Of a stretch of 49,677 bases of DNA, positions 2,885-37,939 are shown piece by piece; positions within the stretch are counted from its first letter, which is position 1, and the number at the start of each line of letters is the position of its first letter. The notes beneath the pieces were generated by a model. It ran no database searches. It was not told where the DNA came from and saw nothing but the letters and a program-made list of their open reading frames with translations. The stretch is taken from NCBI GenBank assembly GCA_029856235.1, contig JAHQWP010000042.1, positions 1-49,677 on the forward strand, given 5' to 3'. The position numbers and the translations under genes are program-made. This DNA is from Promethearchaeia archaeon (lineage in GTDB: Archaea > Asgardarchaeota > Lokiarchaeia > Sigyniarchaeales > SOKP01).

Positions 2885-3565
2885 TTGTTAAATAATATTG
2901 TCAAGACTAAGGAGGAAAGAATGAAAGAGAACACGAAGTACCAGAATTACCGTTTTAGGGGAAAAATAAACATCGACGAGATTGAACCCTGGTTTGATTT
3001 TGGAACAATGCAACCTTGGGATGAGTTAGAAGTTCCATGGGTGTTAGAAAATAAGGTAAGAAGAGAGATTCTAATTACGCTCGCCAAAAGTCCGAAAAGA
3101 TTCGAAGAACTGTATGAAAATCTAAATTTTTCACCGAATCCTCTGTTAATATCAAAAGAAGAATACGAATGTAAGCTAAAATATCAATGGGATAAAGAAA
3201 CAATCAAAAATCACCTTTTAAATTTAGAATGGTATAATTTAGTTAAATTACAAGGAAACAAATACACAGTAACATTTCCAATATTTACCATGGAGAGTTT
3301 AGATGATATGGAAGAGTATATTTTAAAATTTGCGGAGGGTTGGGTAAAAATTGTTAACGATACCAAGGAAAAAATTAAAAAGAAACTCGACATTGACGAA
3401 AAAGAGACAAAATTATATGGTATTTTAATCGAAAAAGCACTCGAGAAACTTTATGAACTTTTAAAAAATCAAAATTTGCTACCGGACCAACCCAATATCA
3501 AAGTACTTTGGGCAGAAGAACTTAGAAAGATTAAATTTGAAGATTGGCTTGAAAAGCACTTTTAA
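2885..3565 (+). CDS. ArsR-like winged-helix transcriptional regulator (probable start ATG 2921)
   Basis: WVLENKVRREILITLAKSPKRFEELYENL ... ETIKNHLLNLEWYNLVKLQGNKYTVT: winged-helix pattern; an internal ATG follows an AGGAGG-like motif. Confidence 0.65.
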   Translation: MLNNIVKTKEERMKENTKYQNYRFRGKINIDEIEPWFDFGTMQPWDELEVPWVLENKVRREILITLAKSPKRFEELYENLNFSPNPLLISKEEYECKLKYQWDKETIKNHLLNLEWYNLVKLQGNKYTVTFPIFTMESLDDMEEYILKFAEGWVKIVNDTKEKIKKKLDIDEKETKLYGILIEKALEKLYELLKNQNLLPDQPNIKVLWAEELRKIKFEDWLEKHF

Positions 3566-16677: not shown

Positions 16678-16884
16678 TTACCGCTCAATCTGGAAATTGA
16701 CTTGTACTCGAACTCGATATATGAGCTTGTCTTGATCTTCTTTTACCTTGACATCTGATTCGACGATTTGGATATTTCTTATACCACGAAGCGATTTTTT
16801 AGCCTCGTCGAAAGCAACTCTTACTGCATCTGCCCAATTTTTATCGCTTGTGGCTACTAATTGAATACTTTTATATACTGATAT
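16678..16884 (-). CDS. Dodecin-family flavin-binding protein, apparent AUA start codon
   Basis: Manual translation from ATA: (M)SVYKSIQLVATSDKNWADAVRVAFDEAKKSLRGIRNIQIVESDVKVKEDQDKLIYRVRVQVNFQIER. The only other upstream in-frame codons are ATT AAA, preceded by TGA; AGGTGA lies upstream of ATA. Confidence 0.85.
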   Translation of the reverse strand: MSVYKSIQLVATSDKNWADAVRVAFDEAKKSLRGIRNIQIVESDVKVKEDQDKLIYRVRVQVNFQIER

Positions 16885-16910
16885 TTTAATTCACCTTTTA
16901 AAATTTATTT

Positions 16911-16940: not shown

Positions 16941-17043
16941 GACTAATTGTAATTGTTTGATATTTAAATATTTCTGAAATAATTTCTGAAGTTTAAAAAA
17001 AAGAGAAAAAAATAGTATTTATGTAATTATTTAAAAAAACAGA

Positions 17044-37129: not shown

Positions 37130-37939
37130 TTACATAAGGTTATGTTTCCAATTCTTCATTTTTGTGAAATATCTAGAAAACATAATATAGCAAATATCTG
37201 GCAATTTCTTATCTAAATTGTTTAATGTAATATAGCGAAGAACATGATTGATTAGGAAAATACCTAAAAATTCCATGTGATAACTACCTATTTTTTTAGA
37301 AAGAGTTTCGCCTTCATAAGCGATATCTAGTTTCCCTTGAATGCCGTATGTTAATTCAATAAAGATTCCCGGAAAAACCTCTTTTTTAATTCTCCAACCA
37401 TTTTCTGTATTCCATACCTTAGCACCTAGAAAAGAAGCGAGTTTGTTCTGATCACTATCTTTTAATAAGCTAAACGGTTCAATCCGCTGGATTAATACCT
37501 TCTTCATCAAATCTGTTTTTGTTTCGTAAGATTTCTCAAAAGGATCTTTATGATTAATCATTCGTTCTATAAAATCAAAGATAATGTCAACATAAGTTAC
37601 GCTATCTTCACCGGGTACGATTATCGCTCTTTCTCCAGAAAAATAACACTTAAATTGAGCTGTAATGCCATCCCCAAATTCATCGCCAAAATACGAATAG
37701 GCTAAATGAATATTTACTTCAGGGAACATTTCTAAGGTGATCGTCCAATCTTCGTTTAATCCAATGTTTTCAATTTTCCCTCCAATATCCTCTGTTATTA
37801 TCTTTTTCAGCGTATCCATGTTAATATCAACAAAGAGCGAGTATTTTGCATTGCTAATGTCTTCAAATTCCTTCTCGTGAGGACCTCTTACTCCAGTAGC
37901 ATCAATTTGTCCTACAGTCCAATACTTAGAATCAGTTAT
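37130..37939 (-). CDS. Hypothetical protein with internal tandem duplication; ORF track starts at 37819 but frame is open to an apparent AUA start at 37939
   Basis: Frame stays open upstream of ATG 37819: (M)TDSKYWTVGQIDATGVRGPHEKEFEDISNAKYSLFVDIN-MDTLKK...; no ATG/GTG/TTG in that stretch; AAGGTG precedes ATTAAA-ATA. Repeats share FPEVNIHLAYS / FPGIFIELTYG. Confidence 0.6.
   Translation of the reverse strand: MTDSKYWTVGQIDATGVRGPHEKEFEDISNAKYSLFVDINMDTLKKIITEDIGGKIENIGLNEDWTITLEMFPEVNIHLAYSYFGDEFGDGITAQFKCYFSGERAIIVPGEDSVTYVDIIFDFIERMINHKDPFEKSYETKTDLMKKVLIQRIEPFSLLKDSDQNKLASFLGAKVWNTENGWRIKKEVFPGIFIELTYGIQGKLDIAYEGETLSKKIGSYHMEFLGIFLINHVLRYITLNNLDKKLPDICYIMFSRYFTKMKNWKHNLM

Follow-up and report, generated by a model that had tools for sequence, protein, structure and literature searches.

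The dodecin gene of a Lokiarchaeota MAG very likely starts at an AUA codon, at which initiator Met-tRNA would be positioned by a Shine-Dalgarno (SD) sequence, and such starts on AUU, AUC or AUA (together AUH) are shared by a minority of genes in the genus. The gene lies on one contig of the MAG, the whole 49,677-nucleotide stretch that was analysed and that is called the window here. Four observations, all made on nucleotide sequence, carry this reading: AUH and SD are conserved in register among orthologues, the frame has no in-frame canonical start, the encoded protein is under selection, and starts of the same kind recur in other genes.

The dodecin gene of the window

An earlier note on this DNA had described a 70-codon, TGA-bounded frame on the minus strand that ORF calling had missed, and its sequence and coordinates are as claimed there. 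The frame runs from an in-frame TGA (16893-16891) over the ATA (16884-16882) to a TAA (16680-16678) and comprises 70 codons if counted from an ATT at 16890; the ORF list of the window, based on ATG, GTG and TTG starts, omits it. The note had seen no canonical start near the beginning of the frame, and indeed ATG, GTG and TTG are absent from the entire frame. On the minus strand the region reads AAAAGGTGA-ATT-AAA-ATA-TCA-GTA-TAT-AAA, and the TGA of the SD sequence AGGTGA doubles as the in-frame upstream stop. The elements are as follows.

16678 to 16884, minus strand: dodecin gene, 68 codons from ATA to TAA, supported by PF07311, NCBIfam dodecin models and a dN well below dS
16882 to 16884, minus strand: putative ATA start codon; orthologues have ATT, ATA or ATG at the same codon, and the frame has no canonical start
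16891 to 16896, minus strand: putative Shine-Dalgarno sequence AGGTGA, 6 nt upstream of ATA; GGTGA has the same spacing in 10 of 10 ATT/ATA orthologues
16961 to 16968, minus strand: TATA-like box TTTAAATA, read from the sequence, probably the gene's own promoter (predicted, no functional data)

The TTTAAATA element is found at a similar distance in related ATT/ATA dodecin genes. Dodecins are small flavin-binding proteins, and the note's assignment of the frame to this family is supported by a match to PF07311 with 61.2 bits (E 4e-16, curated cut-off 22.5) that covers model positions 1-64 of 64. In length, in its N-terminal VYK and in full coverage of the model the protein is dodecin-like; compared with the PF07311 family, only the start codon of the gene is unusual. 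Neither an assay nor a structure prediction has addressed dodecamer formation or flavin binding of the product. No second dodecin was found in the genome. The nearest named relatives come from Candidatus Lokiarchaeota MAGs, and the dodecins of YT5_023 and Hel_238_bin105 share 99% protein identity with that of the window. Among the ATT/ATA dodecin genes dN ranges from 0 to 0.053 and dS from 0.1 to saturation; pairs with a dS near 1 or at saturation have a dN of 0.03-0.05. Judged by these rates, the dodecin protein is under strong purifying selection.

Start codon and SD register among dodecin orthologues

The bare motif AGGTGA-N6-ATH has 3 matches in the window versus 1.5 expected, which is not significant. 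The significance of the AUH start therefore comes from the orthologues and not from the motif. Dodecin genes were obtained from 41 contig loci and from 42 of 58 genomes searched. The codon before VYK is ATT in seven and ATA in three distinct genes (n = 10, window included), and all remaining orthologues have ATG, except for one GTG. Dodecins with ATA are those of the window, of Hel_238_bin105, and of the more distant YT5_013 (L069); counted by records, ATT or ATA occupies the start position in nine other genomes as well. AUU is the commoner of the two across the genus, which goes beyond what the earlier note had claimed.

The note had suggested aligning orthologous upstream regions, and this comparison came out in favor of its proposed start: ATA, ATT or ATG stands at exactly the same codon, and GGTGA lies exactly 6 nt upstream in each of the ten ATT/ATA genes, compared with 4 of 34 AUG/GUG genes that have it at 4-8 nt (Fisher p = 4e-7). 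This p value is optimistic because related species are not independent. Two ATG dodecins, L044 and L047, have the same SD and register as the ATT/ATA genes. L047 reads GGTGAATTAAA-ATG, i.e. the layout of the window but with AUG, and thus fixes the register of the window start. The ATT at 16890, which the note had kept as an alternative start, finds no support, since it follows GGTGA immediately, too near for initiation, and is AAT in several orthologues. The third base at AUH starts varies as at ordinary Ile codons, and this variation gives no support for selection on one exact start triplet.

A separate observation concerns the coding regions of eight related Lokiarchaeal dodecins (L063, L064, L065, L066, L067, L068, L069 and L071; genes at about locus positions 2980-3235, in L065 at 272-502). 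They carry insertions of roughly 26-34 nt at six different sites, two of them in L071. The insertions hold stops or frame shifts, most have hairpin arms, and the protein is conserved on both sides. They are perhaps mini-introns of the bulge-helix-bulge type in a protein-coding gene, a reading suggested by these features only. The window dodecin has no such insertions, and a literature search for dodecin mini-introns of this kind returned nothing. An intron-aware tRNA search of several loci (e.g. L283, L293, L294, L302) found introns in most tRNA genes, which makes active RNA splicing probable in these archaea.

AUH starts in other genes

Within 415 kb of the same genome, a scan revealed further frames that lack a canonical start and have a strong SD followed by AUH or CUG, among them uS4, an AAA ATPase, a small GTPase, an MBL-fold protein, a UspA protein, GatB (CTG) and others. 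Alignments to curated models begin about at the proposed starts for uS4, the GTPase, GatB and UspA. Within the genus, uS4 has an ATC start in 10 genomes and an ATA start in one, but three sister genomes and every outgroup read have ATG; in the genome of the window, the first canonical start of uS4 lies 43 codons in. The C-terminal tail of the uS4 query was partly guessed, and only N-terminal matches were counted. An intron in the uS4 gene of G021 was considered and ruled out, as the gene simply reaches the contig end. Read from upstream sequence, the uL15 start is either ATT or ATA in four genomes. Other ribosomal proteins have ATG, some uL18 genes GTG or TTG; the starts of uL22, uS3, uL29 and uS11 were left unresolved because the alignment column picked was an internal Met. 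Single cases exist outside the genus, e.g. a permease-type membrane protein with an ATA start in G042. Since the same starts are found in uS4, uL15 and other genes, AUH usage, as inferred from these alignments, is not peculiar to dodecin.

Two further frames were noticed in passing. At 37939 of the window (minus strand), a 269-codon frame has its first canonical start at codon 40 and an ATA behind AAGGTGTAATTAAA. GatB at L103 322 (minus strand) has an apparent CTG start with GGAGGT upstream.

Start codons were counted in two genomes for those predicted genes that have an SD match of 6 bases. G000 has 14 with ATG, 8 with AUH, 4 with GTG, 2 with TTG, 1 with CTG and 6 with all other codons; G007 has 20 with ATG, 10 with AUH, 7 with TTG, 2 with GTG and 11 with all others. 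AUH ranks second behind AUG, at a noise expectation that we estimate at about 1 AUH gene per genome, assuming that Ile makes up about a tenth of codons. Very roughly, AUH starts would serve 1-2% of the genes in the genus (denominators 352 and 549 genes). This figure is rough because a test of 112 orthologue groups gave dodecin, the index gene, as the only clean AUH case. On a ribosomal-protein tree, dodecin, uS4 and uL15 have their AUH starts for the most part within one large subclade, with differing ranges: dodecin has ATG inside this subclade in G010, G012, G017 and G022, and uS4 has ATA outside it in G023. These differing ranges of dodecin and uS4 indicate that the starts have switched more than once.

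Proposed decoding of AUH starts and known parallels

We propose that AGGTGA pairs with the 3' end of 16S rRNA (unread in this genome) and anchors the 30S subunit, and that the 6-nt spacer would then place AUA (16884-16882) in the P site. There, initiator Met-tRNA with the anticodon CAU (likewise unread in this genome) would pair with A and U, a mismatch at the third base being tolerated, and the dodecin protein would begin with Met. SD-dependent AUU, AUC and AUA would serve a minority of genes in the genus in the same manner, including uS4 and uL15. Met as the first residue, decoding with a third-base mismatch and any regulation, such as aIF1 policing weak starts, are inferred without protein-level evidence, and the main objection to this explanation is that no proteomic or ribosome-profiling data stand behind AUH starts.

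A dedicated initiator tRNA with anticodon GAU or UAU, which would make AUH cognate, survives best among the alternatives, even if we regard it as improbable. It would be in line with the Ile-like turnover of the third base and with the persistence of AUH over saturated synonymous divergence. AUG is only one mutation away, and so long a persistence of AUH needs selection, a weak disadvantage or another decoder. However, an intron-less anticodon-stem pattern gave 9 matches, as many as the reversed control, ARAGORN found a tRNA at 0 of these 9 loci, and the strict SD dependence better suits a weak codon. This search is only a weak negative, because many tRNAs here have introns and most tRNA-match loci are unread. 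Less probable still is a spliced leader, in which removal of a small intron would join an upstream AUG in frame. The candidate mini-introns of the eight related dodecin genes make splicing conceivable, but in L031 the 90 nt upstream of the start contain no ATG, conservation is lacking for the upstream ATG of the window, and SD and register are retained in ATG orthologues. Two explanations can practically be dismissed. A sequencing or assembly error with G as the true base would need only one base to give back ATG, and the genome is a MAG, but ATT or ATA stands in the nine other genome records and ATT requires a different base change from ATA. A pseudogene with a lost start codon would fit a frame without canonical start, but not a dN far below dS, the retention of open frame, SD and spacing in every gene, and the same codons starting the essential uS4.

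SD-anchored initiation by Met-tRNA thus remains the preferred reading. In a Sulfolobus system, aIF1 favors discrimination against non-canonical starts (PMC6237735). Loss of aIF1 as the cause of AUH starts is ruled out, since aIF1 (SUI1) is present in 18 of 18 high-quality relatives. A conserved leader hairpin with the SD in the loop and the start in the stem was also rejected: the fold of the window is suggestive (-10.1 kcal/mol, z -1.8), but those of the orthologues are not (z -1.1 to +1.0). It is possible, though we hold it only tentatively and rather doubt it, that AUH starts are a regular SD-dependent class across Lokiarchaeales on which dozens of genes in each genome rely, essential genes among them, and that selection maintains these starts as a form of translational control via aIF1 or a special initiator tRNA.

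NCBI table 11 permits AUH starts, and pcnB has an AUU start. The infC gene, encoding IF3, starts with AUU in E. coli and with ATC in Streptomyces (PMC5472188). The dodecin gene resembles infC and pcnB in that the AUH start is conserved among relatives. Those cases are bacterial single genes with IF3 feedback, whereas here several unrelated genes of Asgard archaea are involved, and a strong SD always precedes the start by about 6 nt. The Streptomyces sigR gene has a GTC start and shown repression by IF3 (PMC5472188). It is likewise a conserved non-canonical start misplaced by annotation, but the codon is another one and IF3 repression is shown for sigR only. In 36 prokaryote groups, a change from AUG to AUU was found in 1 of 61,358 ancestral AUG starts, based on annotated starts (PMC5622118). 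The literature describes Lokiarchaea as rarely using SD sequences (PMC12993045); despite this, all orthology-supported AUH starts stand behind a strong SD. The open-access literature searched gave no description of AUH starts from Asgard archaea (subscription papers and preprints were outside its scope). AUH starts are known as rarities such as infC and pcnB; that Asgard archaea use them recurrently and conserve them, also in uS4, appears to be new.

Gene finders that accept only ATG, GTG and TTG miss or shorten AUH genes in Asgard genomes, and the genes affected include uS4, a common phylogenetic marker. With strong-SD AUH starts in Lokiarchaea, start-codon fidelity becomes open to testing in the closest archaeal relatives of eukaryotes, in which aIF1 is the homologue of eIF1.
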